64,000 nucleotides of DNA from a virus, in the IMG/VR virus record IMGVR_UViG_3300044949_001956, positions 1 to 64,000 of that record; one strand, given 5' to 3'. A program made the translations under genes and the position numbers. Positions 1,111 to 64,000 of the stretch are shown piece by piece (the first letter of the stretch is position 1; every line of letters begins with the position of its first letter). The notes under the pieces are model-generated. The model was given only the letters and a program-made list of their open reading frames with translations, searched no databases and had not been told where the DNA came from.

Positions 1111-1912
1111 TCCAGTCTAGAACATCAGTCCAGTCCATAGAGCAGACCTCATCCAACCGGGTGCGGTCTGCTTTAGTATAGCGCTGATACTGCGCCTTGA
1201 GTTCCTCGGGCATGTCTATCTCTGCTATCTTGGAGTTCTCCTTGATGGCGATAGTCACCGCAACCTGCAGGAAGCTCTTGGGTGATCCTGTACCCACATT
1301 CCATATGTCGGACTGATTTACATACAGAAGCCTGTCGTGAACTTGGCACACGTCGTCGACGTGAACAAAGTCGCGGAAGTACTTGTCTGAATCCTTAAAC
1401 ACCTTGATGGTGCCGGTCTCTCTGGCTTGCTTCCTGAACTTGGTCACAGGACTTGCTTGATCGCCCTTGTGGTCCTCGTGGTCTCCATACACGTTGAAGT
1501 ACCTGAACCCTTGAACCGGCACTCTCCAGTTGCCGGCTTTCACGTATTGGTCGAACGCATACTTCGACCACGCATATGGACTACGAGGTTGACCCGGCGC
1601 TGACTCGCTGAAGTCGGGTCCAGGTCCGTACACACTAGCGCTGCTGGCGTATTGGAACCTTACCCCCAGTTCGTTGCACATGGACAGCAGGTCGATGCTG
1701 AACAGCAGATTCTGCTCTAGTATCTTGTTGATGTCCTTCTCGGTCGTACTGGATATGGCGCCTAGATGGATGACAGCATCTAGTCCTGACACGCGAGGCA
1801 AGGTCTTGTCTGGGTCATACTCATAGCCCTCAACCTCGTGCCCACGGGCAGTCAAGTGCTTGACCATGTTCTGCCCGATGAAGCCCTGGTGACCGGTGAC
1901 TAGTACCTTCAT
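1097..1912 (-). CDS. hldD: ADP-L-glycero-D-manno-heptose 6-epimerase
   Basis: Extended short-chain dehydrogenase of 271 residues. It shows the N-terminal nucleotide-binding VTGHQGFIGQN, the catalytic YAWSK (YxxxK), and a GFRYFNVYGDHEDHKG segment typical of HldD/RfaD. In the known pathway it epimerises ADP-D-glycero-heptose to the L,D form used in LPS core. Its start overlaps the end of hldE by 4 nt (ATGA), so the two form an operon. It is shorter than the roughly 310 residues of E. coli HldD. Confidence 0.88.
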   Translation of the reverse strand: MKVLVTGHQGFIGQNMVKHLTARGHEVEGYEYDPDKTLPRVSGLDAVIHLGAISSTTEKDINKILEQNLLFSIDLLSMCNELGVRFQYASSASVYGPGPDFSESAPGQPRSPYAWSKYAFDQYVKAGNWRVPVQGFRYFNVYGDHEDHKGDQASPVTKFRKQARETGTIKVFKDSDKYFRDFVHVDDVCQVHDRLLYVNQSDIWNVGTGSPKSFLQVAVTIAIKENSKIAEIDMPEELKAQYQRYTKADRTRLDEVCSMDWTDVLDWIRDP

Positions 1913-3078
1913 CTTAACTTCTCTATGATGCTGGTGGTGGAGAGATTGCCCACAAGTGGGATGATGACCACCTCAGCCAAGTCGTTGCCCACCACAGTCT
2001 CGGTGGTGTAGTCACCACCCTTGGTGATCACGTCTGGTCGCAGGTTCTCTATGACTCTTCTGGGCGTGTCCGCGTCAAAGATCACCACCTCGTCAACCGA
2101 CTCTAGAGACTCAAGCAGAGCCTTTCGATCCTCCTGCTTGTTCACGGGTCTGTCGTTGCCCTTGAGTCTTCTGACTGACTCATCCGAGTTGAGACCCACA
2201 ACAAGTCTACCGCCGAGCTTCTTGGACTCTCTCAACAGCTCTATGTGACCTCGATGGAGGATGTCAAAGCATCCGTTTGTAAAGACGGTCTTGACTCTCC
2301 TGATGTCGTCTTGTGTCAGGACGTAGGTGCCGAACTTGGTCACGCTGAGTCCCGCCAGCTTGTTTGCTTTGGTGCACGCCATGACCAGATCGTCACCCAG
2401 TGACAAGTAGTAAGTCATGCTGGCAATGAACACGTCACCTGCGCCCGTGACGTCGCTGACCGAGTGCTCGTCGCCCTTTATGTGTGTTGTAGAGTCCTTG
2501 GTGTACACAGACACACCATCTCTACCTCGTGTGACAACCAGAGCTCCTATCTGATACTTGTAGAGCATTCTTGCAGGACTGTTTTGGTAGTCCTCCTTGT
2601 CCGTGTAGTCAACCAGTTCCTTCTGGTTGAGCTTGACGATGTCTGCGCCGATGTAGTTCTCGAGGCGCTTCTTGGGATCTACAATGACCTTACAGCCGAA
2701 GCTCTTGCACCGAGTGATGATCCTATGGGTGTAGTGCAGGTAACCCTTGTTGTAGTCGCTCAGTACGCAGTACTCGATTCCAGTCAGATCAAGGTAGTCT
2801 ACATCATTGTTTATGGTGTACTGCTCGTTGTCAGAGCGAAACACGAGGTGATTATCACACACGTACCTCTTCTTGATGGCGTGGTTCGTCACATCAAAGT
2901 AGTGATCCACTTCGGCTCCTAGGGCCTGCAAGTTTGCCACCACGTTGCCCGAGCCACCGTCACGGCACTCGTACGACACCTCCTTGAAGATGGGTATGGG
3001 CGACTCCGGCGAGATCCTCTCCACCTTGCCCGTGATGTACTCATCTAGAATGTAGTCACCTATGACTGCTATTGTCAT
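1909..3078 (-). CDS. hldE: Bifunctional heptose 7-phosphate kinase / heptose 1-phosphate adenylyltransferase
   Basis: 389-residue protein. The N-terminal PfkB-type kinase domain has DGGSGNVVANLQALG and the catalytic VTGAGDVF. The C-terminal nucleotidyltransferase domain has FTNGCFDILHRGH and KGGDYT. This is the HldE architecture, which makes ADP-D-glycero-beta-D-manno-heptose. It is somewhat shorter than bacterial HldE (about 475 residues), with the loss mainly in the kinase half. It is coupled to the nuclease gene upstream and to hldD downstream by 4-nt overlaps. Both active-site signatures are intact. Confidence 0.88.
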   Translation of the reverse strand: MTIAVIGDYILDEYITGKVERISPESPIPIFKEVSYECRDGGSGNVVANLQALGAEVDHYFDVTNHAIKKRYVCDNHLVFRSDNEQYTINNDVDYLDLTGIEYCVLSDYNKGYLHYTHRIITRCKSFGCKVIVDPKKRLENYIGADIVKLNQKELVDYTDKEDYQNSPARMLYKYQIGALVVTRGRDGVSVYTKDSTTHIKGDEHSVSDVTGAGDVFIASMTYYLSLGDDLVMACTKANKLAGLSVTKFGTYVLTQDDIRRVKTVFTNGCFDILHRGHIELLRESKKLGGRLVVGLNSDESVRRLKGNDRPVNKQEDRKALLESLESVDEVVIFDADTPRRVIENLRPDVITKGGDYTTETVVGNDLAEVVIIPLVGNLSTTSIIEKLR

Positions 3079-8158: not shown

Positions 8159-8738
8159 GCTTTAGAGACTCACGGTCTGTAGCGTCTCGGTACCTGATCC
8201 GCTGAGAGATGGCGTGTAGGATCATCATGTGCACATCTTCTACTACGCCGTAGTTGAATGAAGGAACGTGCACGTTGATTTGGGACATCAGTGATGCATA
8301 CCCACCGGTAAAGCCGGTAAGGGCAATCGTTTTAGCGCCCAGCTCGTTTGCCGCGGTGATACCATTTATGATGTTCTGTGAATTGCCGCTGGCTGACATC
8401 GCCAGCACCACGTCGCCGTATTGACACCGATGGTAGCGCAACTGCTTGGCAAAGATGTGCTCGTAGCCTATGTCGTTGGCAAGAGCGGTCACAAGCGGCC
8501 CGTTGCTCGCTAGACTGATAGCCTTCGCGGTGAGGATGTCGTGCTTGTTGGTGTCCTCGTTGAGGCCCTTCATGTAGTCGCAGACCCAGTGATCTGCATT
8601 GGCTGCCGATCCGCCGTTACCCATGATGTAGAGTCTGGCACAGCCGTCGATTGCTTTAAAGGCTTGCTCTAAGATCTCTCGGTTGATCCCTGCTGTAGCA
8701 AGATTGACTGCCCCAAAGTACTCGTCAAAGCTGTTCAT
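8154..8738 (-). CDS. gmhA: Sedoheptulose 7-phosphate isomerase
   Basis: 194-residue SIS-domain protein. It has YIMGNGGSAANADHW, the sugar-phosphate loop of GmhA, followed by SASGNSQNI and ALTGFTGG. It makes D-glycero-D-manno-heptose 7-phosphate, the first committed step to LPS heptose. Its start overlaps the end of the HddA-like kinase gene by 4 nt. Together with hddA, hldE and hldD it gives the phage most of a heptose pathway. Confidence 0.88.
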   Translation of the reverse strand: MNSFDEYFGAVNLATAGINREILEQAFKAIDGCARLYIMGNGGSAANADHWVCDYMKGLNEDTNKHDILTAKAISLASNGPLVTALANDIGYEHIFAKQLRYHRCQYGDVVLAMSASGNSQNIINGITAANELGAKTIALTGFTGGYASLMSQINVHVPSFNYGVVEDVHMMILHAISQRIRYRDATDRESLKL

Positions 8739-9709
8739 AGCTTGAATGCCTCACTTCCGATGTCTGTGAACGAGATGTGGAACTGCTTGTAGTGCTTCCG
8801 CATGTGGGTCTTGAAGCTGGCGTGGCGCTCGTGCGGGACGTAGAAGAGCATGTACCCACCGCCGCCTGCGCCCAATAGCTTGCCGCCGATGGCTCCCGCC
8901 TTCCTCCCCTCCTCGTACATCGCGTCAATATGAGGGTTAGAGATAGAGCTTGCCAGCTTCTTCTTTTGCTCCCAGGTCGTGTGCAGCAGGGCGCCGAAGT
9001 CATGAAGCTTTTCAGACTTCAGGAGCTTGAGACCTTCCTCTGCAATTTGGACCAGCTCCTTGGTGGCATCAACCGTCGACTTGGTCTGCAGGTTGGCGAC
9101 CTGCTCCCCGAGTATATCAGACGTCTTTCTATTCACGCCGGTTGAATAGCAGATGAGTCGCTCGTTGAGCACGCCAAGGATTGCGGAGCTCAGTGGTATT
9201 GGGGTCACCTCTACACCAGAGCTGTCGAACCGGATGCAGTTGAATCCACCGTAAGCTGCCGCATACTGGTCCTGCTTGCCGATGGGCTCTCCGCAGAAGT
9301 CGATCTCGATGTTGCTTGCAAGCTCTGCTAGGTCTCTCTTATTATACGGCAGGCACTTGAGCTTGTAAAGGGCATTCACCAGCGCTACGGTGAAAGTCGA
9401 CGACGAGCCGAGACCCGTGCCCTTGGTCGGAACGTCAGAGAAAGAGCAGATCTCTATCTTGCGCTGAGTCTCAAATATGCCAAGGGCATGCCTGATCCTG
9501 TCGTGCTTGAGTTCACTGGCGTCCTTGACCACTTCCATCTCTGAGTAGACTGCACGAACGTGGTCAGTCTCGCAGGGGTTTACGGCTATCTTGATGCGTC
9601 GGTCAATAGCCGTAGAGATCACCATCCCGGGTGAGTTCCTGTAGAACTGCGGGATGTCACTGCCCCCTCCGAAGAACGAGATCCGGAGGGGAGCCGAGGA
9701 GATGATCAT
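8735..9709 (-). CDS. hddA: GHMP-family heptose 7-phosphate 1-kinase-like protein
   Basis: 324 residues. It has SAPLRISFFGGGSD at the N-terminus, the ATP-binding GLGSSSTFTVALVNAL and the C-terminal GGKLLGAGGGGYMLF, the three GHMP kinase motifs. Its sequence pattern and pairing with gmhA point to D-glycero-alpha-D-manno-heptose 7-phosphate kinase (HddA), the kinase of the GDP-heptose route. The start was chosen at MIISSAPLR, whose ATG overlaps the upstream stop (ATGA). Another sugar kinase of the family is the alternative. Confidence 0.8.
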   Translation of the reverse strand: MIISSAPLRISFFGGGSDIPQFYRNSPGMVISTAIDRRIKIAVNPCETDHVRAVYSEMEVVKDASELKHDRIRHALGIFETQRKIEICSFSDVPTKGTGLGSSSTFTVALVNALYKLKCLPYNKRDLAELASNIEIDFCGEPIGKQDQYAAAYGGFNCIRFDSSGVEVTPIPLSSAILGVLNERLICYSTGVNRKTSDILGEQVANLQTKSTVDATKELVQIAEEGLKLLKSEKLHDFGALLHTTWEQKKKLASSISNPHIDAMYEEGRKAGAIGGKLLGAGGGGYMLFYVPHERHASFKTHMRKHYKQFHISFTDIGSEAFKL

Positions 9710-10707
9710 GCTGTCTTGTACGTGAACTTGGGCGTTGGAAATGCCCTGGACTCTACAGTTGGGTATTCGGCTCGAAGTGACCGAATGAGGTCTTCCCACT
9801 GACTGGCGATCTTTGTCGCGTTAAACCTGACATCTGCATACTGCTTGACAAAGCCCAGGTAGTTGATGGCATTATCCTGGTGCACCACCTGAATGGCATT
9901 CTCCAGTAGGTGATAGAACTTAGAGGCATGCTGATTGTGGTCGTCGATGAACTGGTACATGGATGTCAATCCACCAGACGTGTCAGCAAGACCAGCCAGA
10001 TTTGGATGCAGACACAGGCATCCAGCGCTCATGGCCTCAATCAGTGCTCGGGAGTTGCACTCCTGCCAGATTGAGGGGTAAGCAAAGATGTGAGCCTTCT
10101 GAAGGTGCTCTCGGACCACGTCGTTCGGCTGAGAGCCGTGGTACGTGATCTGCGGGTGGGACTTGCAGCGCTCGAAGAGCTCCTGGTATGGCTTGTCGGA
10201 CTCTTCCCACCCGTAGATGGAGAAGCTAGAGAACACGTCCAGGTGGATGTTCTTGTGCTTTTTCGCTAGTTCCTCAAAGACCGGGATCAGCAGGGCAAGG
10301 CCGCGCTGAGGTGTCGAGGTGTAGATGAGTCGGACTTCATCCTTGGACTTCTCTACCCACTGGATCGGTTCGATGGGTGTCTCGATGGTGACGCACTTGT
10401 CGTTCTGCGGTACACCCAGATATGTGACGTACTGGTTGTACTGCCAGTTGCCACAGAATACCAGCTTGTGGAACCTATCCCTACTGGACTGATCCTTGAG
10501 GTGGTTGGTCTCAGGGTCAAGTGGGAGGTCATGGAGCCAGTAGACTCGAATCTTGCTCTCGTCAAGGCCTCGAACACGACTGCAGATGACCTGCATGTTG
10601 TCCTGGGCTAGTAGGTCGGGTGATAGCTTTGCCGCCACCATCCTCTTGGTCTGCTCGGTTCCTCCGTTAGACTTTACGGAGATTTCGTTCTCTTCAAAGA
10701 TTGCCAT
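9706..10707 (-). CDS. GT-B glycosyltransferase (family 4-like)
   Basis: 333 residues. The C-terminal Rossmann half has RLIYTSTPQRGL, HIFAYPSIWQECNSRALIEAMSAG and a later GG motif, matching the donor-binding EX7E region of GT4/GT1 enzymes. The N-terminal half is short. The start (MAIFEENEISVKSNGGTEQ) retains the glycine-rich acceptor-side loop. Likely adds a sugar to LPS, capsule or modified DNA, and the surrounding heptose and GalE genes favour a surface glycan. It overlaps galE by 14 nt. Confidence 0.78.
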   Translation of the reverse strand: MAIFEENEISVKSNGGTEQTKRMVAAKLSPDLLAQDNMQVICSRVRGLDESKIRVYWLHDLPLDPETNHLKDQSSRDRFHKLVFCGNWQYNQYVTYLGVPQNDKCVTIETPIEPIQWVEKSKDEVRLIYTSTPQRGLALLIPVFEELAKKHKNIHLDVFSSFSIYGWEESDKPYQELFERCKSHPQITYHGSQPNDVVREHLQKAHIFAYPSIWQECNSRALIEAMSAGCLCLHPNLAGLADTSGGLTSMYQFIDDHNQHASKFYHLLENAIQVVHQDNAINYLGFVKQYADVRFNATKIASQWEDLIRSLRAEYPTVESRAFPTPKFTYKTA

Positions 10708-11671
10708 TGCGATACTCCCATGCAGACCGCATCATGAGATCAAGGTCATCAGCACCGTACTGGTACTTGAAGCCGGTCTGCTTTATGAACTTGTTTGGAT
10801 TTGCTACAAGGAAAGGCGGATCGCCTACTCGGCGTGGGCCTTCAACCACCTCAACTTCTGCACAGGCCTTGCTGAAGCAGTCAATCATCTGGCGGACAGA
10901 GTAGCCCATGTTTGTGCCGAGATTGAACTTGTGGTGGCAGGGATTTGAGCCCTCTAGGTATTTATCCGCGTGAATCAGAGCTCGGGCTACGTCGACCACG
11001 TGGAGGTAGTCGCGAATCGGTGTGCCGTCATGCGTATCGTAGTCGGTGCCGTTGATGATGAACGGCTCCTTCTTCATCGACCGGTCACATAGCTGGTTGA
11101 CGATGTGCGGTGTCTCAGGTAGCTGGCCGACATCCCCGTATGCGCCTACGACACAGAAGAAGCGGAACGACACCGCACGGATGTGACCCAACTTGTAGTA
11201 GGAGTCAAGCATCTGCTCGGTCCAGAGTTTGGACAAGCCGTAGTTGTTGGGAGGATCCAGACGACTAGTTTCCCTGAGCACTCGGTCAGAGATGCCGTAT
11301 GTCGCCGCCGTGCTGGCAAAGATAAACTTGTTTGAAGGGGTGAGCTCTCTGATCAAATTGAGAGTCTTGGCGGTGTTGTTCTTAAAGTAGAGTAGAGGCT
11401 CGATGGCACTTGGGCCAAGGAGACTGTTTGCGGCTAGGTGAAAGATGGTTGCATCCTTGTACTCGTGGTACACGTGCATCGCTTGCTCGGATACAAAGTC
11501 TGCTGCCAGGAAGTCGTCGCAGTACTTCACCCTGTTTGCGCCGTTGATCCAGTCAAGCTGACAGTTTGGGTCGTTGTCAATGCCGACGACGTAGTAGCCG
11601 TTCTCCTTGAGCAACTTGCACAGAACAGAGCCGATGTAGCCGTAGGCTCCGGTTACAATAGCTGTCTTCAT
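10694..11671 (-). CDS. galE: UDP-glucose 4-epimerase-like NAD-dependent epimerase
   Basis: 325-residue extended SDR. It has the NAD-binding VTGAYGYIGSVL, ASTAATYG, the catalytic YGLSK and the GalE-like GTPIRDYLHVVDVARA. GalE interconverts UDP-glucose and UDP-galactose (or the N-acetyl forms). It overlaps the glycosyltransferase and cytidylyltransferase genes, forming one surface-sugar operon. Confidence 0.85.
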   Translation of the reverse strand: MKTAIVTGAYGYIGSVLCKLLKENGYYVVGIDNDPNCQLDWINGANRVKYCDDFLAADFVSEQAMHVYHEYKDATIFHLAANSLLGPSAIEPLLYFKNNTAKTLNLIRELTPSNKFIFASTAATYGISDRVLRETSRLDPPNNYGLSKLWTEQMLDSYYKLGHIRAVSFRFFCVVGAYGDVGQLPETPHIVNQLCDRSMKKEPFIINGTDYDTHDGTPIRDYLHVVDVARALIHADKYLEGSNPCHHKFNLGTNMGYSVRQMIDCFSKACAEVEVVEGPRRVGDPPFLVANPNKFIKQTGFKYQYGADDLDLMMRSAWEYRNGNL

Positions 11672-19591: not shown

Positions 19592-19921
19592 ATGGGCGGT
19601 GTAGTAGAACTCATAAGCAAGTATGGGTTTCCGATCGTGGCGGCCGGCGGGCTTGGCTACTTTGTCTACTACGTTTGGATCTGGGCCACCAAGGAAATCA
19701 AGCCCGTCCTCTCAGACGCAAGCAGTGTACTTATAGCGCTCATAGACCGAATCCGAATGCTTGACAACGACTTGATCAGGCTCAACCAGAAGGTCAACGT
19801 AGTCCTCATGCTGCGAGAGATGGAGCATGAGGAACTGGTCAAGAAGGCGGCTGAGTTCCGTCAAGCGGATCGGGAGACCAAGAAGGAAGCGCCTCCCGAA
19901 AAGCCGCCTACTTCGAAGTAG
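19592..19921 (+). CDS. Small membrane protein with one N-terminal TM segment (109 aa)
   Basis: Starts MGGVVELISKYGFPIVAAGG. One TM segment (about residues 13-35) is followed by an amphipathic helix (ALIDRIRMLDNDLIRLNQKV) and a Lys/Pro-rich tail. It shares the GFPI-TM-helix layout with the protein at 19248-19535, suggesting tandem duplication and divergence. It converges on the cyclase gene, overlapping it by 14 nt. Confidence 0.65.
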   Translation: MGGVVELISKYGFPIVAAGGLGYFVYYVWIWATKEIKPVLSDASSVLIALIDRIRMLDNDLIRLNQKVNVVLMLREMEHEELVKKAAEFRQADRETKKEAPPEKPPTSK

Positions 19922-21932
19922 CCCTGTACACGCCGTCAAAGCCCTTCGGCGGAGAGTAACTTTCCATTCTCTCCGCCATCATCTTGTAGTAGTCAACCAG
20001 CTCGCCGTCAAACAGCGGCTTGAGGTTGGGCAGCATTGACCTGGCAATGTCCCACCTGCCCTTGCGATACGCGGTCAGGAACTCCTGATGCAGGTTCATC
20101 GCCAGTATGTCTCTGTTCTTGACTACGGTATAGATCGACACGGGCTCGGTCTTGCCCTTGACCGCTAGTAGGTCAAGCTCGACCACGTTGAACTCTCCCA
20201 TGACTTGCTCTGCGGTCTTTGGACCAAGGACCAACTTCACGCCGTATGGCTTTGACTGTCCCTCAAGCCTTGCCGCTAGGTTCACGCTGTCGCCCAAGCA
20301 CGTGTAGTCAAACCTCTGGTCACTGCCCATGTTGCCGACCACGACTGAACCCGTATTGATGCCCAGGCCCATGCCGAACGCAGGCACTCCCTCCTTGGCG
20401 ATCTCGTCGTTGAACCTCTTTAGGTCGTCAAGCATAGCAAGTGCCGTGCGGACTGCATCGACTGCGTGCTTTTCGTTGTCAAGCGGAGCATTCCAGAATG
20501 CCATCTGGGCATCGCCGATGTACTTATCAAGAGTGCCGTTGTTCTCTAAGATCTTTGCTGTCATGGCAGTCATGTAGCGATTCATGATCTGAGTCAGGCC
20601 CTGGACGTTGTCGCCGTAGTGCTCAGAGATGGTGGTGAATCCTCGAACGTCGGTGAACATGATCGACAGCTCTCTGGTCTCACCGCCGAGCTTCAAGAGC
20701 TCTGGATTCTTCTGCAGCTTCTCCACCATGTCGGGAGACAGGTACGTGCCGAACTGCTTCTTGATCTGCTGCTTGAGTCTGAACTCCTCCATGGCTCTAG
20801 AGAATGCGGCAGCGGAGAACACAAGTATTGCTGCGGTGATAGGGAACACGGCGTCAAATAGGACCATGTACTCGGCTCTGGCAAACAGCGAGGCGTAGGC
20901 GACCCACCCGATTACAAACACCACGACTGGTCCGCCGACTATCAGTCTCGTCCGTAGGGCCATCAGTATTACCAGTAGACCGACAAGGAGCGATACAGCT
21001 AGCTCGTACGTGTCTGCCTCTGCCTGTCTGGTCACAAACAGTCGATTTATGACAGATGACAGCTCAGTCGCTATGACCTTTGCCGGCAGCATCTCGCCGT
21101 GACTTGTGGCGACCGGGTTGCTGAATCCCTCGGCGGTCAGTGACAGGATGACTATCGTTCCGTCCAGATCATCCGGGAGGTCCAGCACTGAGTATGATTC
21201 GTACCTGAACGAGCGAACGGGCCAAAGTCGACTGTTGGGGTCTGTGTATAGCAGAGGTTGCCCGGGTATCCTCAGCACCTCTACACCCAGATCGTTTGAT
21301 CTGATCTGAAAGCTGACCTCGTCGGACAGCACTCGAAGAGTCTCTAGAATCAGTGATGGATAGACCTTGTCGCCCACCGACACAAGCATCGGACTGCGAC
21401 GAACTACGCCGTCGGGCTCTGGCATGGTGGCTATCATGCCCACGCCAGATGCCGCTTCAGCAAACTGAGGCAGCGGCGGTATGGCGCCGGGCCATGAGGG
21501 CAGGACGTCGTTGATAGGAGGACCGATCAGGGCATAGCCTCTGTCCCTGGCAAACGGCTCTCTTGCCTGTGTTGTCGGCGCCTGAGCCAGGATGACCGTG
21601 TGCTCTCTCAGGGCATTCTCTAGGTCTGAGTCCTTGCCTGACCTATCAGTCTCCGAGAACAGTATGGGCACCACTATAGCCGCGGCGCCTCTGTCCATGA
21701 TGTCGTTGATGTATCGGGCGACAACATCTCTGGGCCATGGCCATTGACCGTTCTGCTGTAGAGCCGCCTCGTCTATGTTGACTAGCACTATCCCCGGATC
21801 GTTGATGACGGCCTGCTGGCGCTCGAGGAAGTCAAAGTACTTCATCCTTGCAACCTCAACGGGCCATGGATCAAAAGCTCTGATCGCCAGTAAGGCGACT
21901 AGGATCAATGCGGAGAGGATGTATTTCTTCAT
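19908..21932 (-). CDS. CHASE2-domain class III adenylate/guanylate cyclase
   Basis: 674 residues. N-terminal TM segment, an extracytoplasmic CHASE2 domain (about 30-320, with INDPGIVLVNIDEAALQQ and WPWPRDVVARYINDI), three TM segments near 330-400, then a class III catalytic domain. The catalytic motifs look intact: ELSIMFTDVRGFTTISE (metal-binding Asp), DKYIGDAQMAFW and GINTGSVVVGNMGS with LGDSVNLAARLEG. The start at MKKYILSAL overlaps the upstream stop by 1 nt (TAATG), making it the last gene of the curli-like operon. It would make cAMP or cGMP at the inner membrane in response to a periplasmic signal. Very unusual cargo for a phage. Confidence 0.9.
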   Translation of the reverse strand: MKKYILSALILVALLAIRAFDPWPVEVARMKYFDFLERQQAVINDPGIVLVNIDEAALQQNGQWPWPRDVVARYINDIMDRGAAAIVVPILFSETDRSGKDSDLENALREHTVILAQAPTTQAREPFARDRGYALIGPPINDVLPSWPGAIPPLPQFAEAASGVGMIATMPEPDGVVRRSPMLVSVGDKVYPSLILETLRVLSDEVSFQIRSNDLGVEVLRIPGQPLLYTDPNSRLWPVRSFRYESYSVLDLPDDLDGTIVILSLTAEGFSNPVATSHGEMLPAKVIATELSSVINRLFVTRQAEADTYELAVSLLVGLLVILMALRTRLIVGGPVVVFVIGWVAYASLFARAEYMVLFDAVFPITAAILVFSAAAFSRAMEEFRLKQQIKKQFGTYLSPDMVEKLQKNPELLKLGGETRELSIMFTDVRGFTTISEHYGDNVQGLTQIMNRYMTAMTAKILENNGTLDKYIGDAQMAFWNAPLDNEKHAVDAVRTALAMLDDLKRFNDEIAKEGVPAFGMGLGINTGSVVVGNMGSDQRFDYTCLGDSVNLAARLEGQSKPYGVKLVLGPKTAEQVMGEFNVVELDLLAVKGKTEPVSIYTVVKNRDILAMNLHQEFLTAYRKGRWDIARSMLPNLKPLFDGELVDYYKMMAERMESYSPPKGFDGVYRATSK

Positions 21933-23326
21933 TATTGCCCCTGTATCACCGTTATGGCTGCACAACTAGCGGTAGCGCAGTTGTGAGTGATTGAGTAGTG
22001 CTGTTGGGTGCTGCCCGTCTGTGTAGTCGTGATGGAAGTTGAACCGCCGCTTAACTCGATCCTCGCCATGTGGTTGCCAGAACCAGACTGATTCACGTTT
22101 ACGGTCTTGTTGCCGCCCAATAGGTTGATCTCAGCATAGTGTGACCCTGCGTTCTGTTGCTGCACCGTTATGGAGTTCACGTTGTTGCCTACAGTAGCAA
22201 GAACTCCTCTGGAACCACCGGTGCCTGATTGATTTATGGTTGTAGAGTTATTGCTTCCTTGGATGGTGGTCTCTATGTAGTTTGTGCTGTTATTGGAGTT
22301 CTGTGTGATGTTGGCGATGTTATTGGATCCATTGACTGTGTACTGCGTAAAGTTCCTTGTGCCCAGCTGAGTGACATTGGCTGTATTGGAGTTGCCGACC
22401 TGCTCGATGATCACTCTGCTGTCACCAGTTGCAGTAAACGTCTGCACACGTCCTGTAAATGCGGCATTGGAGTTGAATGGCGTGGCACTACCGCCGCAGC
22501 AAAGAGAGGGTGCGGCCGCGGGCGGGGGCGGGGCGGATGAGCCAGCATTTGGCTGGACGGGAGCAAACGTCTGCCCGTTCAGTGTGGTCGTGCCCTGAAT
22601 CTCATCAACTAGTAGGATCGGACTCAAAGCTGTATCACCAAGGTTAAAGCTAGCAAACCCCAGTGTGTATGTTCCTGTTTCCGGAACCGTAAATGTTGCC
22701 ACCTGCCATCCAGTTGAGCCGTAGCTGCCGGTAGAGTAGTTGCCCGTGCCGGGATTAGTAAACCCAAGCAGTCCGTATCTGCGCTGTAGGTTGTTCAGCG
22801 TTGGAATCTTGCTTGCATCCGTAGAGTGGACCAACGTGATCAGAGAGCCGTCATTGAACGGCGTGTAGTCAGAGGAGATGTACTGCCACGCTATGCTGTA
22901 GGTTACCCCGACTTGTAGTGCAACTGATCGCCTCAACCAGACTCCGTTTGTTGGGGTAGGATTACCACCACCGGTTTGAGCTTGCTGCTGCAGCATAGTT
23001 CTTATGGCTGTATTGTCTGCCTGCAGCAATCCAAGGCTAGACACTATGGAATCAAATCCAGGAGCTCCGGAGCCAGCTTGTAGTGAGGCCATGTGTGTTC
23101 CATGCGGCGTGACATTCCATGTCTTACCGCCACCTGGCGCAAAGTTAGTTACTCCTGTGACAACAGCCACGCCCACACCATTGGCGCCCCAACCTGTAGG
23201 ACCACGGGTTGCATTGTTGCTTGCGGTCCATCCAGTTAGGTTGCCAAGCTCAAATCCATAGTTGTCCTGAGCCGTTGCTGTGGTAGCAAACAGCAGTACA
23301 AACAATGCGGCAAGTAATCTGATCAT
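21932..23326 (-). CDS. Exported adhesin-like protein with C-terminal curlin-type repeats
   Basis: 464 residues. Signal peptide ends at TATAQ. The N-terminal about 240 residues look like a beta-sandwich module (NYGFELGNLTGWTAS, then VPETGTYTLGFASFNLGD), typical of exported surface proteins. A Pro/Ala linker follows (about 265-285). The C-terminal about 170 residues carry curlin-like repeats with the N-x-A/T-x-x-x-Q-x-G spacing (NSNTANVTQLG, NNIANITQ, NNSTTINQSG). A likely curli-associated fibre subunit or tip adhesin. It overlaps the FecR gene by 4 nt. Confidence 0.75.
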   Translation of the reverse strand: MIRLLAALFVLLFATTATAQDNYGFELGNLTGWTASNNATRGPTGWGANGVGVAVVTGVTNFAPGGGKTWNVTPHGTHMASLQAGSGAPGFDSIVSSLGLLQADNTAIRTMLQQQAQTGGGNPTPTNGVWLRRSVALQVGVTYSIAWQYISSDYTPFNDGSLITLVHSTDASKIPTLNNLQRRYGLLGFTNPGTGNYSTGSYGSTGWQVATFTVPETGTYTLGFASFNLGDTALSPILLVDEIQGTTTLNGQTFAPVQPNAGSSAPPPPAAAPSLCCGGSATPFNSNAAFTGRVQTFTATGDSRVIIEQVGNSNTANVTQLGTRNFTQYTVNGSNNIANITQNSNNSTNYIETTIQGSNNSTTINQSGTGGSRGVLATVGNNVNSITVQQQNAGSHYAEINLLGGNKTVNVNQSGSGNHMARIELSGGSTSITTTQTGSTQQHYSITHNCATASCAAITVIQGQ

Positions 23327-24408
23327 CTGTTCCAGATCCTTACTGTTACTCTGCTTCCACCGTCACCGCTGACCCTAGACTGAGTGTCGACCTCATTGAT
23401 AGAGATGCTGTATGTCGTGTTGTCGGTGCGCTCGCCGGTGTAGATTCTGATCACGTTGTTGCGCTGCTCGTCCTCTCTGTGATACCAGTTTCTACCCCTC
23501 TCGTTCCCACAAGCGTTGAATGGCCAACACGGGTTCGTGGGGGACACGTCGCCTTGCATCTCCGCTGTGGATGACACAAGCAATCTAGTCGATGAAGATG
23601 ACTCTGATTGTTGGTGATTGGATTCAGCGCTACTGGAGGAAGTCGCTCTCTGCTCCTCGCTCGACACAGCACTGCGGTTGCGGTCCCTTTCTCTAGCCTC
23701 ATTGCGCTGCTGCTCTGCAGCCAATATGCCCTCGGGCTTGCGCAGGGCTAGATCATTGCTGATGGTGGCTATGTTTGCTTCTATTCGGACTGGGGGCAGG
23801 GGTTGCTGATTAGCGTCTGTAACGTACGTGGCTGTAAATGGCTGAGTCAGGGTAACAGACCCCGCTGCCGTTATGACGTCGATTATGCCCACTGTGCAGT
23901 TGCCAGAGATCTCAAAGCGATTGATTTCTCTGGGGTCATTGCACGAGGGAAGCAGCACCACAAAGCTACGCCCCGCTTCATCCACCGACATCGCCATGTC
24001 AGTTCCCCTTACAGCAACTGTGGCTGTAGGAGTTGAGATGTTTAGGTTCTGTCGATTGGATCTAGCTATCTGACCAGACGTGTACTGAACTGTGCCCAGA
24101 GTGACTCTCATCGCCATCCTGCCAGCATCGGATCGGTTGGGATCGAACACGAAGCTGTCGATGACTAGTCTGGAGTTCTCTTTGATCTTGACTCTGGTGT
24201 TGTCCTGGAACGTGATGTTGGTCTCCGCTCTGGAGCCAACAAGCACGGTGTCCATGCTCTCTATGCTTGTGTTCTGTTGACCCGGTATAGAGTTTGAACC
24301 TCGTCTGATTTCAACGGTTGTCCCCGTCTGCTCAGAGACTCTGCCGACGGCAGCGTGAGCCACCGTCGGCATTAGGCATAACAATAATCCCACCAGTAGC
24401 TTTTTCAT
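23323..24408 (-). CDS. Exported FecR-domain protein
   Basis: 361 residues. Signal peptide (MKKLLVGLLLCLMPTVAHA) and then a FecR-type beta domain (about 40-150) with VLVGSRAETNITFQDNTRVKIK and LNISTPTATVAVRGTDM. There is no anti-sigma TM arrangement; it is a secreted FecR-domain protein. The second half is Ser/Gln/Arg-rich and low-complexity, then ends in a beta-like region. FecR-domain proteins occur in some bacterial surface and biofilm loci. It sits between the two curlin-repeat genes, so a role in the fibre or its assembly is likely. Confidence 0.78.
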   Translation of the reverse strand: MKKLLVGLLLCLMPTVAHAAVGRVSEQTGTTVEIRRGSNSIPGQQNTSIESMDTVLVGSRAETNITFQDNTRVKIKENSRLVIDSFVFDPNRSDAGRMAMRVTLGTVQYTSGQIARSNRQNLNISTPTATVAVRGTDMAMSVDEAGRSFVVLLPSCNDPREINRFEISGNCTVGIIDVITAAGSVTLTQPFTATYVTDANQQPLPPVRIEANIATISNDLALRKPEGILAAEQQRNEARERDRNRSAVSSEEQRATSSSSAESNHQQSESSSSTRLLVSSTAEMQGDVSPTNPCWPFNACGNERGRNWYHREDEQRNNVIRIYTGERTDNTTYSISINEVDTQSRVSGDGGSRVTVRIWNR

Positions 24409-54401: not shown

Positions 54402-54890
54402 TTAGAAGCGATAGTTCAGACCGAGGGTTACACGGTCCGCAGTCACGTCTCCACTAAAAGCCTCTACACGACGATAGCGAGCGTCGACCTGCCAGTTGGC
54501 GCTCAGGTTGTAAGCCACGCCTACGCCGGCATTCCACAGCGCCTGAGGATCATTGGCAGCATCGGCAAGTGCATTGAAGCCGTAGCCAGCGCCCACCAGG
54601 ACATACGGAACCACGGGACCCAGAGGATACCCAGCAGTCACGTTTGCAAAGACCGCCTGACCGCCACGCTGAGTCTCCGTCTGAGCGGTGAAGTCACCGA
54701 GTGCCTCTACAGCAAGGAAGCGGTTGACGCGATACCCTACGGTTGCAGTTCCGCCCCACTGGGCATCTTCAACCGAGCGGCCCTGAGTCGCTGCGGCGGC
54801 GCCGACATAGACGCCAGACTGAGCCGCGGCTTCAGTAGCAAAGGCGCCGACGGCAAGAGCAGCGACGAGAGCAATACCAGTCTTGTTCAT
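54402..54890 (-). CDS. Outer-membrane beta-barrel protein
   Basis: 162 residues. Signal peptide (MNKTGIALVAALAVGAFATEAAA), then alternating strands typical of an 8-stranded OMP barrel (GTATVGYRVNRFLAVEALGD, VDARYRRVEAF) ending in LGLNYRF, the BAM-type C-terminal Phe signature. OmpA-like/Omp25-like family. It could alter the infected cell surface or block superinfection (inference). GGAG lies 8 nt upstream of the ATG, just after the tmRNA gene. Confidence 0.8.
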   Translation of the reverse strand: MNKTGIALVAALAVGAFATEAAAQSGVYVGAAAATQGRSVEDAQWGGTATVGYRVNRFLAVEALGDFTAQTETQRGGQAVFANVTAGYPLGPVVPYVLVGAGYGFNALADAANDPQALWNAGVGVAYNLSANWQVDARYRRVEAFSGDVTADRVTLGLNYRF

Positions 54891-54919
54891 GTAGTTTCTC
54901 CATATCGAGTTGTGAGGTC

Positions 54920-55203
54920 GGTTGATTCTGTTTCTAGGCTCAACCGTAAGCCCAAGAGATTACGCCGCTAAGCGAGTCTCAACAAAGCCGTTATCGTTGG
55001 CGTTTGTGTTGGTTTGTTGCGTTGGGTAGCTTCCGCACCATTGCCTACTTCGACCCTTACTGTCATCAGTCGATCCTGTTTCCGCCCCAAAGGAAAACTG
55101 TGACGTATCATCACTGACAGAGGTCACAGCCGTGTTATTGGTGGAGCGGCGGAGTGCTGCCCTCCGGTCCTGTCTGACCTATTTGGTCGCTATCATCAGC
55201 AAC
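54920..55203 (-). ncRNA. ssrA: Two-piece (circularly permuted) tmRNA
   Basis: Read on the minus strand. The acceptor piece comes first and ends CCGCTCC-A-CCA (55148-55139), with a T-arm CGGAG/CTCCG just before. After an about 50-nt spacer (itself with a CTGTGAC/GTCACAG hairpin) the coding piece begins GGGGCGG (55088-55082), pairing with CCGCTCC to rebuild the 7-bp acceptor stem. The tag frame reads ANDNGFVETRLAA followed by TAA (stop at 54960-54962), matching proteobacterial tags (AND...LAA). Permuted tmRNA is the alphaproteobacterial form. Outer ends are approximate. The promoter lies directly upstream. Confidence 0.88.
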
Positions 55204-55207
55204 AAGG

Positions 55208-55215
55208 TATTTATA
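55208..55215 (-). promoter_or_regulatory. T4-type late promoter TATAAATA overlapping the tmRNA -10 box
   Basis: A perfect late consensus that shares bases with the sigma70-type -10 of the tmRNA promoter, so the same site could be used early and late. Confidence 0.55.
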
Positions 55216-55237
55216 CACCAGTCCTAGTCGAAGTCAA
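55210..55237 (-). promoter_or_regulatory. Early sigma70-type promoter for tmRNA
   Basis: Minus-strand TTGACT, 16-bp spacer, TATAAA. The predicted +1 (about 55203) is just before the acceptor piece; it overlaps the 3' end of the 103-aa gene. Confidence 0.75.
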
Positions 55238-55535
55238 CCTTTTCCGACACAAGAGTTCGAGTCTCAGTGACCTTAGTGACTTGAATCGTCTCGAGCTTTG
55301 GAGAGTAATAGCTGGGCCCGACCTTTGATCTTGCTACGCTTATAGCCTTCTCTTTGGTGTCGAACTTGTATGCCAGCGTCTCGTTGGTGATCCACTGAAA
55401 GATGTTGTACTGGTAGTCGATGGAGACCCAAGCTGGTACATTCTCCTCCATCATCACGTACCCGGCTGAGTTCTCAGACTGATTCATCCGGACCGATACC
55501 GTGTAGTACTCTGTCTTGATCTCGTTAACTGTCAT
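55224..55535 (-). CDS. Hypothetical protein (103 aa)
   Basis: Starts MTVNEIKTEYYTVSVRMNQS. Beta-rich with repeated Thr/Val, ending TETRTLVSEKVDFD. No family. Overlaps the 61-aa membrane protein gene by 4 nt. Confidence 0.6.
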   Translation of the reverse strand: MTVNEIKTEYYTVSVRMNQSENSAGYVMMEENVPAWVSIDYQYNIFQWITNETLAYKFDTKEKAISVARSKVGPSYYSPKLETIQVTKVTETRTLVSEKVDFD

Positions 55536-56095: not shown

Positions 56096-57139
56096 CTACG
56101 TCCAGATTGATTGACCGTTCGGACTACGAATACGATCTCTCCAAGCAGCTCGGATCAGCTCATGAGTCGCAGCAGGGAGCGGAATGTACTCTAGACGAGA
56201 GGCAATGTCACTGCCCTGACGGTATGCCCAATCAAAGAAGCGCATCGTATTCAAGCTGCCCGCCACCTTGTCCGCCGTCGGGTTGGTCGGCAACAGGATG
56301 TAGGTGGGCGAGGTGATCGGCCACACCGTCGCACCGTTCAGGTCGATGGTGTCGGCGGCGAAGTTCGGCACATTCCAATCGGCCGCCGCGGCGGTCGCCA
56401 GGAAGGCAGGCGGCTCCGGGCGCACGAAGTTGCCGGACTTGTTCCGGATCTGCGTGGTCGGCATCCGGTTCACCACGGCATAGGCGTTCTCGATGTAGCC
56501 GATCGTGCCCGGGGTGTTGCGGATGATGTTCGACACGCCTTCATTGCCGCGCGCGCCATTGCCCACCGGCCAGCGCACGGAGGTCCCGGCACCCGGACCA
56601 TTGCGCCACTCTTGGGAGATGCGCGAGAGATAGGTCGTCCACACCCAGGTCGTGCCCGAGCCATCGGCACGGTAGGCGACCGAAAGCGGCAGGTTCGGGA
56701 TACGGATGTCGCGGTTCAGCTCGGCGATCCGCGGATCGTTCCAGCGGGTGATCCGGCCGAAGAAGATGTCGGTGATGATTTCCGGCGTCAGGCGCAGCGC
56801 ATTGTCCGCCACACCCGGCAGGTTCGCGCTCAGCACGACCGAGCCCATGACGGTCGGGAACTGCAGAAGGTTGCGCTCGGCGAGCTGCGCCGTGGTCAGC
56901 GGCGCGTCAGAGGCGCCGAAATCGACCGTACGCGCGGTGATCTGGTTGATGCCGCCGCCGGAGCCGATTGACTGGTAGTTCAGCTGCACGCTGATGGCTT
57001 CTCGTGCGGCCTGCGCCCAGCGCTCATAGAGCGGACGGGGGAAGGTGGCGCCGGCGCCGGTGATCGTAAGTGTTTGTGCTGATAGACTGGGGGATGCTAG
57101 TAGAGCGGCACCAGTCAGCATTAATGTTCGTCGGTCCAT
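56096..57139 (-). CDS. pstS: Periplasmic phosphate-binding protein PstS
   Basis: 347 residues with a signal peptide (MDRRTLMLTGAALLASPSLSA). The P-binding sites are visible: ITGAGATFPRPLYERW, QSIGSGGGINQI, DFGASDAPL and VAYRADGSGTTWVW. It binds phosphate for the host Pst transporter. The middle of the gene (about 56.23-57.06 kb) is much richer in GC and GC-ending codons than its flanks, as expected for a recently host-derived gene. AAGGAG lies before the ATG. Confidence 0.92.
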   Translation of the reverse strand: MDRRTLMLTGAALLASPSLSAQTLTITGAGATFPRPLYERWAQAAREAISVQLNYQSIGSGGGINQITARTVDFGASDAPLTTAQLAERNLLQFPTVMGSVVLSANLPGVADNALRLTPEIITDIFFGRITRWNDPRIAELNRDIRIPNLPLSVAYRADGSGTTWVWTTYLSRISQEWRNGPGAGTSVRWPVGNGARGNEGVSNIIRNTPGTIGYIENAYAVVNRMPTTQIRNKSGNFVRPEPPAFLATAAAADWNVPNFAADTIDLNGATVWPITSPTYILLPTNPTADKVAGSLNTMRFFDWAYRQGSDIASRLEYIPLPAATHELIRAAWRDRIRSPNGQSIWT

Positions 57140-61835: not shown

Positions 61836-62078
61836 TCAGTTATAATTCCAGGCTTCCATCGAGACCTGGTGACCCGCCGAAGCCCATTCGGCCCGAAAGC
61901 CGTTGAACAGGGAAATGGCGAGCTTGGAGCCCGACGTCTCGAAGATATCGTATACAGAGCGATCGCCGCTCTCGGCGTCAACTTCCCAGATGATCACCCG
62001 ATACGTGTCGAACCCCTGCAGCTCGGCGGGGAGCCGCTTTTGGGTGAGGTTCCGGGAGAGATCGATGTTGATGGCCAT
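61836..62078 (-). CDS. Hypothetical early protein (80 aa)
   Basis: Starts MAINIDLSRNLTQKRLPAEL with CGGAGACAGACACA upstream. Beta-alpha small protein with IIWEVDAESGDRSVYDIFET. No family. Confidence 0.6.
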   Translation of the reverse strand: MAINIDLSRNLTQKRLPAELQGFDTYRVIIWEVDAESGDRSVYDIFETSGSKLAISLFNGFRAEWASAGHQVSMEAWNYN

Positions 62079-62105
62079 TGTGTCTGTCTCCGTGTTGATA
62101 GTCCC

Positions 62106-62134
62106 TTTATACCACCACCCGCTTTTAAAGTCAA
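62106..62134 (-). promoter_or_regulatory. Early promoter cassette (variant leader)
   Basis: Minus-strand TTGACT, 17-bp spacer, TATAAA. The leader has ATC instead of the in-frame ATG seen in other copies. Confidence 0.72.
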
Positions 62135-62270
62135 CCCCTATCTTGCGGCACCCACCGGCAGACCCCCACAAAGGTACCCGCTAGGCAAAAAGTCAATAAA
62201 ATCAATAACTTAGCCGATCTAGGGGTTCTATACAAAATGTATAAGAATCAATGGTTTAGCCGATTCCATA

Positions 62271-62341
62271 CAGCTACCAGCGATCTAAGTCAGCTAGACT
62301 GATGGGAAACCCACTAGAGCGGCTTAGTACGATAGTAGCTG
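62271..62341 (+). repeat. Conserved hairpin element, copy 2
   Basis: Outer stem CAGCTAC...GTAGCTG with paired internal CG and TAAG blocks encloses the 19-nt core AGACTGATGGGAAACCCAC (62296-62314), identical to copy 1 at 49821-49839 (opposite strand). A TTTTT run follows, so it may also terminate transcription. Confidence 0.7.
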
Positions 62342-62376
62342 TTTTTAGGTGACCCGCAAAAATTATTTCCGAATCT

Positions 62377-62406
62377 TCTCAATGCGTTGAAGCTAACCCA
62401 TTGAGA
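62377..62406. repeat. Hairpin TCTCAATGCGTT / AACCCATTGAGA
   Basis: 12-bp imperfect stem directly upstream of the plus-strand early promoter; related to the elements at 49873, 51529 and 52118. Confidence 0.5.
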
Positions 62407-62414
62407 TGGCGTGG

Positions 62415-62443
62415 TTGACTTTTATAGCGGCTAGGGGTATAAA
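62415..62443 (+). promoter_or_regulatory. Early promoter cassette
   Basis: Plus-strand TTGACT, 17-bp spacer, TATAAA, then GAGACTATGAACAACGGAGA. Confidence 0.75.
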
Positions 62444-62470
62444 GAGACTATGAACAACGGAGACACACAA

Positions 62471-62671
62471 GTGGATCGGATTGATCGGAACAAGGTTCGC
62501 GAACTGACCCGTGCGCTGGAAGCCCGGGTGAACTCTCCCCACTACGTCATCGGCTGGCTGGAGTCCATGATCGCCTCGGTCGACTCGCCGGTCCGCCTGA
62601 CCAAGAAGCAGGTCAAGGCCTTCAACGAGATGCTCGACGACAACATCCGCTGGGCATCGGAGACGAAGTGA
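62471..62671 (+). CDS. Hypothetical early protein (66 aa)
   Basis: GTG start (VDRIDRNKVRELTRALEARV) with GGAG 8 nt upstream; the in-frame ATG at 62450 (MNNGDTQ) at the predicted +1 is the alternative. Helical, basic, with SPVRLTKKQVKAFNEMLDDN. No family. Confidence 0.6.
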   Translation: MDRIDRNKVRELTRALEARVNSPHYVIGWLESMIASVDSPVRLTKKQVKAFNEMLDDNIRWASETK

Positions 62672-62675
62672 CCTA

Positions 62676-62703
62676 TTGACTTTATTCTCAGATCGGATAT
62701 AAT
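62676..62703 (+). promoter_or_regulatory. Early sigma70-type promoter
   Basis: Plus-strand TTGACT, 16-bp spacer, TATAAT, 25 nt before the 160-aa gene, with ACGGAGACAGAC before the ATG. Confidence 0.75.
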
Positions 62704-62728
62704 CCACAAGCAATCAACGGAGACAGAC

Positions 62729-63211
62729 ATGACCAAGCTCATCAAGCAGGCTAACCGCCCCGGGCTCTACGTCTCGGACATCATCAACGAGCGCTACCAG
62801 ATCCTCGAGTCCGAGGTGTTCAAGTCCTCGTACTTCGTGTACGACCTGGTCAAGGACGACATGATCCGCTCCAACGACGGCAGCTGCAAGTACTTCGACT
62901 CGCTCGACTCGGCAATGGCAGTCGCTACCGGTCTGGGCATGGTCGCTAAGGCCGTCAAGGTCAAGCAGCCCAAGCCCGAGAAGATCAAGGAGCCCAAGGC
63001 GGCTGGCAAGCGCGACGAACTTCAGGCAGCCGGCCGGCCGAAGCCCAAGAAGGGCTCCGCCAACGGCACGATCATCGAGCTCATCAAGACGACTCAGATG
63101 ACTGACGCCGAGATCTCTGCCGAGGTCATGCGGCTCTTCCCCGACTGCAAGACCTGCAAGCCCTACGACGTCAAGTACCGCCGTCGCAAGGTCGAGGCGG
63201 GCGCCCTTTGA
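62729..63211 (+). CDS. Hypothetical protein with Lys/Pro linker and C-terminal HTH-like region (160 aa)
   Basis: Starts MTKLIKQANRPGLYVSDIIN. Residues 1-70 form a small alpha/beta domain; about 75-112 is a Lys/Pro-rich linker (KQPKPEKIKEPKAAGKR). The C-terminal part (ANGTIIELIKTTQMTDAEIS ... KPYDVKYRRRKV) resembles a winged-helix DNA-binding module. A DNA-binding early protein is likely. Overlaps the peptidase gene by 4 nt. Confidence 0.65.
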   Translation: MTKLIKQANRPGLYVSDIINERYQILESEVFKSSYFVYDLVKDDMIRSNDGSCKYFDSLDSAMAVATGLGMVAKAVKVKQPKPEKIKEPKAAGKRDELQAAGRPKPKKGSANGTIIELIKTTQMTDAEISAEVMRLFPDCKTCKPYDVKYRRRKVEAGAL

Positions 63212-63666
63212 TCACTCGCTACGGCGCCCCTAATAGGGCCAGTCCGGAACTGGCAGTCGAGGCTCTCGGGTTCTTTACCGAGAGCCTCATGAGCAAGCGT
63301 CTGTGCGCCAACCTCAAGATCAGGCTGTTCTTCAAGGACGACCTGCTCAAGAAGCACAGGCTTGAAGCTCAGTGCGCCTGGGAGGATGACAACCTCCGGC
63401 CCCGCGAGTTTGCCGTCACGGTCGACAGCGGGCTCACCAGGCATCGCATGCTGCTTTCACTGGCTCACGAGGCGGTGCACATCAAGCAGTACGCGACTGG
63501 CGAGCTGAGGTACTTCATCCGCGGGTGCGCCTGCAGGTGGCGGGGCAAGCCCATCAACGAGGATCGTATCCCCTACACCGAGCTCCCGTGGGAGATTGAG
63601 GCCTGGGGCCGCGAGCGTGAACTGTTGGAGTCATTCTTAGAGACAAGGAAGAGAGGCCGTGCCTAA
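63208..63666 (+). CDS. SprT-like zinc metallopeptidase
   Basis: 152 residues. The zincin helix is visible as LSLAHEAVHIKQYATGEL (HExxH), with a downstream Glu in PWEIEAWGRERELL as a possible third ligand. SprT-type proteases act on DNA-protein crosslinks or unknown substrates. Coupled to the upstream gene by a 4-nt overlap and to the ArfA-like gene by an 8-nt overlap. Confidence 0.78.
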   Translation: MITRYGAPNRASPELAVEALGFFTESLMSKRLCANLKIRLFFKDDLLKKHRLEAQCAWEDDNLRPREFAVTVDSGLTRHRMLLSLAHEAVHIKQYATGELRYFIRGCACRWRGKPINEDRIPYTELPWEIEAWGRERELLESFLETRKRGRA

Positions 63667-63790
63667 AAGGAATCCTGTGGCCAGAGCTCTGGCCTCGCGA
63701 CTCTTCGCCAAGAGAGTCGTGAAATCCAAAAAGATCTATAGCCGCAAGGCAAAAAGAAAGGGCGCCGATTTGGCGCCCTTTTCGCATTAG
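63659..63790 (+). CDS. arfA: ArfA-like alternative ribosome-rescue factor with terminator inside the frame
   Basis: 43 codons from GTG, with AGAGG just upstream. PKRNPVARALASRLFAKRVV followed by KSKKIYSRKAKRKG aligns by eye with the ArfA core (N-A-I-x-A-L-x-x-x-LF-x-x-RV-x-K-x-KK-x(n)-Y-x-RK). ArfA recruits RF2 to ribosomes stalled without a stop codon. A GC-rich terminator (63760-63782) lies before the stop codon, so the mRNA should end without a stop, exactly the arrangement known for proteobacterial arfA, where tmRNA then keeps levels low. Confidence 0.72.
   Translation: MPKRNPVARALASRLFAKRVVKSKKIYSRKAKRKGADLAPFSH
63760..63782 (+). terminator. Bidirectional terminator inside the arfA-like frame
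   Basis: Perfect 7-bp stem GGGCGCC / GGCGCCC, 5-nt loop, then TTTT on the plus strand and TTTCTTTTT on the minus strand. It serves both the arfA-like gene and the convergent gene at 63787-63999. Confidence 0.85.
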
Positions 63791-63999
63791 TCGAGGTCCT
63801 TGTTTCGTGACCCTGGTGTGTCTACCATCAGGTAGCGAGCCTTTTCGTTGACTCGATGTCGAGCCTCCAGGATTTCACGGACCTCGAAGAGTCTCTGGAC
63901 ACAGGCCCTGATGGTCCGCCTGGTGACCTCGTCGTTGGTTCCGTCCTCTAGATCTATGAGAGCGGCATGGAGGTTGTTGTCCACCGACCGGTCGACCAA
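63787..63999 (-). CDS. Hypothetical protein, 5' end at or beyond window edge
   Basis: At least 70 residues (the frame is open to position 63999, with only a TTG there): VDNNLHAALIDLEDGTNDEV and RACVQRLFEVREILEARHRV. Helical. No family. Probably truncated by the window. Confidence 0.5.
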   Translation of the reverse strand: MVDRSVDNNLHAALIDLEDGTNDEVTRRTIRACVQRLFEVREILEARHRVNEKARYLMVDTPGSRNKDLD

Positions 64000-64000
64000 A

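Follow-up and report, generated by a model that had tools for sequence, protein, structure and literature searches.

Can a bacteriophage encode a ribosome rescue factor whose own synthesis is held in check by trans-translation? The question is raised by the end of the window, as we call the whole 64,000-nt stretch of viral DNA analyzed here, where a 43-codon ArfA-like reading frame carries a terminator-like hairpin ahead of its stop codon. The same anatomy is found in E. coli ArfA and B. subtilis BrfA, both shown experimentally to be made from nonstop mRNA, which arises by internal termination (or RNase III cleavage for E. coli ArfA) and leads to tagging of the product (PMC8012679, PMC6881298). 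The window belongs to a viral record of 107,845 bases, assigned by its DNA polymerase to the T4 superfamily (closest match cyanophage gp43, about 48% identity), and contains the following features:

54869–55256, minus strand: permuted (two-piece) alphaproteobacterial-type tmRNA with the tag ANDNGFVETRLAA (ARAGORN, Rfam)
63208–63666, plus strand: upstream gene, metallopeptidase-like, with a HEAVH motif (phrog_10499)
63659–63790, plus strand: ArfA-like gene of the phrog_20887/DUF7230 family, GTG start, 43 codons, TAG stop (phrog_20887 match, hhalign to ArfA)
63671–63748, plus strand: conserved core NPVARALASRLFAKRVVKSKKIYSRK, residues 5–30, complete before the hairpin (60-member comparison)
63756–63782, plus strand: intragenic terminator-like hairpin GAAAGGGCGCC-GATTT-GGCGCCCTTTT (shuffles, d-score)
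63788–63790, plus strand: TAG stop, 6 nt past the T run and expected downstream of the 3′ end in most transcripts
63787–64000, minus strand: convergent gene continuing past the window end, about 108–118 aa, last of the regA/gp62 operon

Elsewhere in the window, three minus-strand genes for a CHASE2 and nucleotide-cyclase protein, a repeat-rich protein (NSNTANVTQ-like repeats) and a FecR-domain protein adjoin at 19908–24408 and form a bacterial-looking set within the phage genome. Minus-strand genes at 1909–3078 and 8735–11671, HldE-like kinase/nucleotidyltransferase by Pfam and GHMP-kinase-like, glycosyltransferase-like and epimerase-like by reading only, may represent a sugar-nucleotide pathway, and a PstS-like phosphate-binding protein (PBP_like_2; 56096–57139, minus strand) is encoded close to the tRNA/tmRNA cluster.

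The ArfA-like gene starts with a GTG at 63659, downstream of the purine-rich stretch AAGGAAGAGAGG and overlapped by 8 nt by the stop of the upstream gene, and its 43-residue product reads MPKRNPVARALASRLFAKRVVKSKKIYSRKAKRKGADLAPFSH. Within the frame, GGGCGCC (63760–63766), the loop GATTT (63767–63771) and GGCGCCC (63772–63778) are followed by TTTT (63779–63782), and the stem reaches 11 bp once the flanking A-T and G-T pairs are counted (63756–63782). Hairpin and T run are thus wholly contained in the 43-codon frame, and the frame, the hairpin end at 63782 and the stop codon at 63788 are all as the original prediction had them. Dinucleotide shuffling of the frame (2000 replicates) reproduced the stem score only once, and the 72-nt 3′ segment of the gene gives a folding z-score of −3.7. 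Our own implementation of the d’Aubenton-Carafa terminator score yields +18.1 on the plus strand and +22.0 on the minus strand. The convergent minus-strand operon comprises regA and gp62 clamp-loader genes; its final TAA (63789–63787) shares two bases with the ArfA-like TAG (TTAG) and the hairpin begins 4 nt past it. The hairpin also serves the regA operon; that it ends a convergent gene had been proposed from the outset. On the plus strand, where the U tract consists of only four T, the predicted RNA end falls at 63785–63786 (7–8 nt after the GC stem), or 2–3 nt short of the stop. Termination before the stop codon is predicted, but the margin is narrow: a few extra bases of elongation past the T run would take in the stop codon, and nonstop and normal transcripts probably occur side by side. 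A search of IMG/VR with the exact hairpin gave no match, no nucleotide relative of positions 62001–64000 was found in the phage collection, and the searches yielded no close relative of the phage in which conservation of this very hairpin could be followed.

At the protein level, the window product matches phrog_20887 (PHROGs; E = 7.2e-11) and phrog_2701 (E = 5e-5), whereas its scores fall below the gathering scores of both DUF7230 (PF23876; 23.7 bits versus 27, E = 5e-5) and ArfA itself (PF03889; 12.3 bits versus 25.5, E = 0.12). Searches by tblastn and viral-contig scans, including one with a four-row family alignment, gathered 151 distinct members, with homologues in Pootjesviridae, phiM12-like phages, the jumbo phage Atu_ph07, Acinetobacter Twarogvirinae and many marine phages; a match to Escherichia phage AV129 was judged to be a chance antisense frame. 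Among 60 members tested, phrog_20887 was matched by 59, DUF7230 by 47 and ArfA by 20 (E up to 1), and core positions N5, P6, A8, K24, K25, Y27, R29 and K30 are invariant or nearly so. Aligned by hhalign with 20 bacterial ArfA proteins, the phage family scores 37–41 at 94–95% probability, the value of 37.4 being what remains once a GKG/GRG-type motif filter has taken out ten rows; among 200 column-shuffled profiles the highest score was 15.2. The two families share the core NxxxxxLxxPxFRxRVxKxKK...YxRK in register (N5 with N14, and Y27/R29/K30 with Y39/R41/K42), and the sole gap is a three-residue deletion of GKG. The residues invariant in the bacterial set are A18, K34, GKG (35–37) and R41, of which the window protein keeps the K34 and R41 equivalents, with R9 in place of A18 and no GKG; in E. 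coli ArfA, the A18T mutation abolishes activity. Like its E. coli counterpart (YhdL), the window protein is small and basic, with a hairpin between core and stop and a convergent overlapping neighbor (mscL in E. coli); unlike it, the protein has 43 rather than 72 residues, its core starts with NPxA, and its gene is carried by a phage whose probable host class has been described as devoid of arfA.

The distance to canonical ArfA is bridged by sequences with a GKG-type motif that do pass the PF03889 cut-off, namely locus L071 (29.3 bits), Roseobacter phage CRP-212 (33.3), phages RXM (29.6) and Cr30 (27.1), and the alphaproteobacterial L225 (31.9) and L229 (29.4); CRP-212, Cr30, L071 and L225 combine an NPxAK start with a KPKKGKG-type motif. 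These intermediates, together with the in-register profile alignment, identify the phrog_20887/DUF7230 family as a divergent branch homologous to ArfA at the profile level. The ArfA-like designation in the original prediction accordingly stands as one of distant homology, whereas outright membership fails because the window protein’s own PF03889 score falls short of the cut-off that six relatives exceed. A PDB profile search with the family returned no ArfA and chance matches only, and an NCBIfam search gave no relevant match. Bacterial ArfA, mostly disordered when away from the ribosome, frees nonstop ribosomes through RF2 and becomes essential in cells that lack tmRNA.

To place the hairpin in a family context, we scored strong perfect stems lying wholly inside the reading frame after the YxRK motif in the 149 viral members with a readable 3′ end, with 1608 neighboring genes from these loci as controls; a free-energy-only test proved too loose, with about 7% of control genes passing. 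Such hairpins are present in 20 of 149 members versus 6 of 1608 controls (Fisher P = 1.6e-17, a value that overstates independence because the members are related). The ratio of hairpins inside the frame to those over or after the stop is 20:4 in members and 6:57 in control genes, and under a stricter test requiring a T tract, inside versus after the stop, it is 10:3 and 5:68, respectively. At least seven unrelated hairpin sequence types occur in the viral set (window; phiM12/phiN3/Atu_ph07; L021; L020/L123; L027/L056/L039; L042; L034 group/L050), several of which share one place just past YxRK; Citromicrobium phage RXM contributes one more type, and the alphaproteobacterial members further ones. 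In phiM12, phiN3, L039 and L056 the downstream gene lies on the same strand, so convergent packing does not explain those hairpins. The 61 nt past YNRK in L020 and L123 differ at four bases only, which make up two compensatory pairs even though the exchanges alter the protein (R to G, L to P). Comparing the L034 group with L050, we see one stem pair go from G-C to A-T without a change in either encoded residue. The hairpin is 94% identical whereas the following 60 nt are only 37% identical, and the stop lies anywhere between 35 and 212 nt from the hairpin, as would be expected if the residues encoded there were rarely made. The exact L034-group hairpin recurs in eight viral contigs, each time in the ArfA-like gene. 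Together, the enrichment, the unrelated types and the compensatory pairs support selection on the intragenic hairpin in the wider family: recurrence in relatives is borne out, and the caveat that the hairpin’s position might be a coincidence of compact packing can be set aside for the family. Nonstop synthesis is, however, not general, as 125 of the 149 members, pelagiphage forms included, have no strong intragenic hairpin.

In Acinetobacter AB-Navy1, where the submitters annotated a terminator inside the CDS, the hairpin extends up to the stop codon and the T run comes after it. In L027 (1996–2166), L056 (2480–2650) and L039 (2480–2635) the hairpin’s 3′ arm holds TTGACT or TTGACA with TATAAT about 17 nt further on, so that terminator and promoter seem to have bases in common. 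The Pootjesviridae loci L002, L004, L005, L007 and L208 have no hairpin, their reading frames run into the convergent gene, and all five carry the DNA word GAGGGGG near the convergent stop.

Could the hairpin simply terminate the convergent regA operon, with the ArfA-like gene overlapping it in a compact genome and that gene’s own transcripts reading through to the stop codon? The overlapping stop codons with the hairpin directly after, the slightly better minus-strand T tract (CTTTTTG; d-score 22 versus 18) and the presence of a convergent gene end 1–11 nt from the hairpin in nine of the 20 carriers all speak for such an arrangement. We nevertheless regard it as unlikely, considering how seldom the control genes contain such a hairpin, the carriers whose downstream gene lies on the same strand, and the recurrence of unrelated hairpin types just past YxRK. 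Moreover, E. coli arfA and mscL overlap tail-to-tail in a like manner and arfA is nonstop all the same (PMC10070815), and a bidirectional terminator would leave the ArfA-like mRNA nonstop as well.

A similarly doubtful alternative accepts the product as an ArfA-like rescue factor but has it made here from a normal, constitutive mRNA that boosts rescue capacity, as in pelagiphage and most Acinetobacter phage members. It draws on the hairpin-free majority of the family, on Pelagibacter phage HTVC027P gp30, which is annotated as ArfA and highly expressed (PMC12753301) and whose frame has no intragenic hairpin, and on the mere 6 nt separating the window’s T run from its stop; against it stands the strength of the window hairpin in the shuffles and its placement, which matches that in nonstop-type members. 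Less probable still is that the family comprises small basic peptides with a function apart from ribosome rescue, such as RNA or DNA binding or an anti-host activity, whose likeness to ArfA is compositional. The lysine-rich, 43-residue product, its PF03889 E-value of only 0.12 and the loss of A18 and GKG would fit that view, whereas column-shuffled nulls of the same composition reach at most 15 versus 37, bridging members exceed the PF03889 cut-off, and nonstop architecture marks two release factor-dependent rescue factors, ArfA and BrfA.

We thus consider it probable that the window gene represents a phage ArfA branch made from nonstop mRNA and, by virtue of that, repressed by trans-translation. 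In such a model, codon 31 already completes the protein core, which would fill the vacant mRNA channel and bring in a release factor; RNA polymerase would meet the terminator hairpin at codons 33–42, and most transcripts would end short of the stop, leaving ribosomes stalled at the 3′ end. As long as tmRNA-SmpB is available (host tmRNA, perhaps the phage’s, and host SmpB), the nascent peptide would be tagged and degraded; were trans-translation depleted, for example by heavy mRNA breakdown in infection, the ArfA-like peptide would escape and could rescue ribosomes with host RF2 or RF1. As to how complete termination might be, in one test about 40% of its efficiency was left to a terminator placed 38 nt ahead of the stop codon, and a translating ribosome can partly suppress a nearby terminator inside translated sequence (PMC4824070).

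The trans-translation side of this model is represented in the record itself. As the original prediction had stated, the same phage carries a tmRNA: ARAGORN finds its tag, and it passes both the Rfam alpha_tmRNA (RF01849; 89 bits versus a threshold of 50) and tmRNA_permuted (RF04321; 93.4 versus 47) models. Its permuted alphaproteobacterial form, along with the ANDN tag, suggests that the host is an alphaproteobacterium. On the 107.8-kb record we found neither a SmpB gene nor a release-factor gene, so both rescue layers would lean on host SmpB and RF2 (or RF1). Across 44 scanned records, tmRNA exceeded threshold in the window record and in the contigs of L020, itself a hairpin carrier, and L088, with weaker matches in two more; co-carriage with the ArfA-like gene thus recurs. 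In most scanned records of hairpin-bearing relatives, many of them fragmentary, no tmRNA was found, and the pairing is hence not obligatory. The original proposal, largely right in other respects, therefore holds for a tmRNA and a distant ArfA homologue in one phage; it overstated a closed, phage-encoded loop and understated the breadth of the phenomenon.

Phage genes annotated as ArfA (PMC8953757, PMC12753301) and phage tmRNAs (PMC4131195) were already known, the latter from mycobacteriophages, phage G and Bradyrhizobium elkanii phages (PMC4131195, PMC12656738); the window tmRNA differs in its permuted alphaproteobacterial form and in sharing a record with an ArfA-like gene. Citromicrobium phage RXM g10 (PMC8953757), annotated as ArfA like HTVC027P gp30 (PMC12753301), resembles the window gene in that its frame contains a hairpin with a perfect 11-bp stem, located 55 nt ahead of the stop; both of these proteins keep a GKG/GRG-type motif, unlike the window protein, and nonstop synthesis is not mentioned for either in the accessible portions of the two reports. 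Bacillus BrfA likewise has an intrinsic terminator within its coding region and a product repressed by trans-translation (PMC6881298), but it is reported to be evolutionarily distinct from ArfA and is likened here as a functional parallel only. The literature searched, partial in its coverage, yielded no account of a phage ArfA made from nonstop mRNA, of what DUF7230 does or of alphaproteobacterial arfA, and no description of intragenic hairpins for phrog_20887, phrog_2701 or DUF7230, the window protein’s own sequence family, which has no functional assignment.

The family extends to bacterial genomes. Its profile is matched in 33 of 385 alphaproteobacterial genomes, a count that includes weak matches and any prophage genes and that contradicts a survey that found arfA in 0 of 2,376 such genomes (PMC11633108). 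About nine of 27 chromosomal members, a count that leaves out L222, carry an intragenic hairpin, including L210, L211, L228 and L229; L211 lies between ordinary chromosomal genes, and L229 couples a GKG-type ArfA above the Pfam cut-off with an intragenic terminator. ArfA-like genes were noted in Alphaproteobacteria at L210, L211 and L212–L242, several with intragenic hairpins, and at L216, L225, L226 and L232 a stop codon falls within the profile-matched stretch, possibly where the profile runs past a short C-terminus.

These findings offer a probable role for a phage family of wide distribution that so far had none; its 151 members span Rhizobium, Sinorhizobium, Agrobacterium, Acinetobacter and pelagiphage-like phages. 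They also reveal in viral genes the nonstop-mRNA architecture of bacterial ArfA. Sinorhizobium phage phiM12, whose gp363 gene carries an intragenic terminator-like hairpin followed by six T, offers direct experimental access to the nonstop reading. More tentatively, alphaproteobacterial phages and some of their hosts may carry an unrecognized nonstop ArfA clade that serves as a fail-safe sensor in infection, the protein appearing only when mRNA breakdown or host defense exhausts trans-translation and the phage tmRNA perhaps tuning the threshold.
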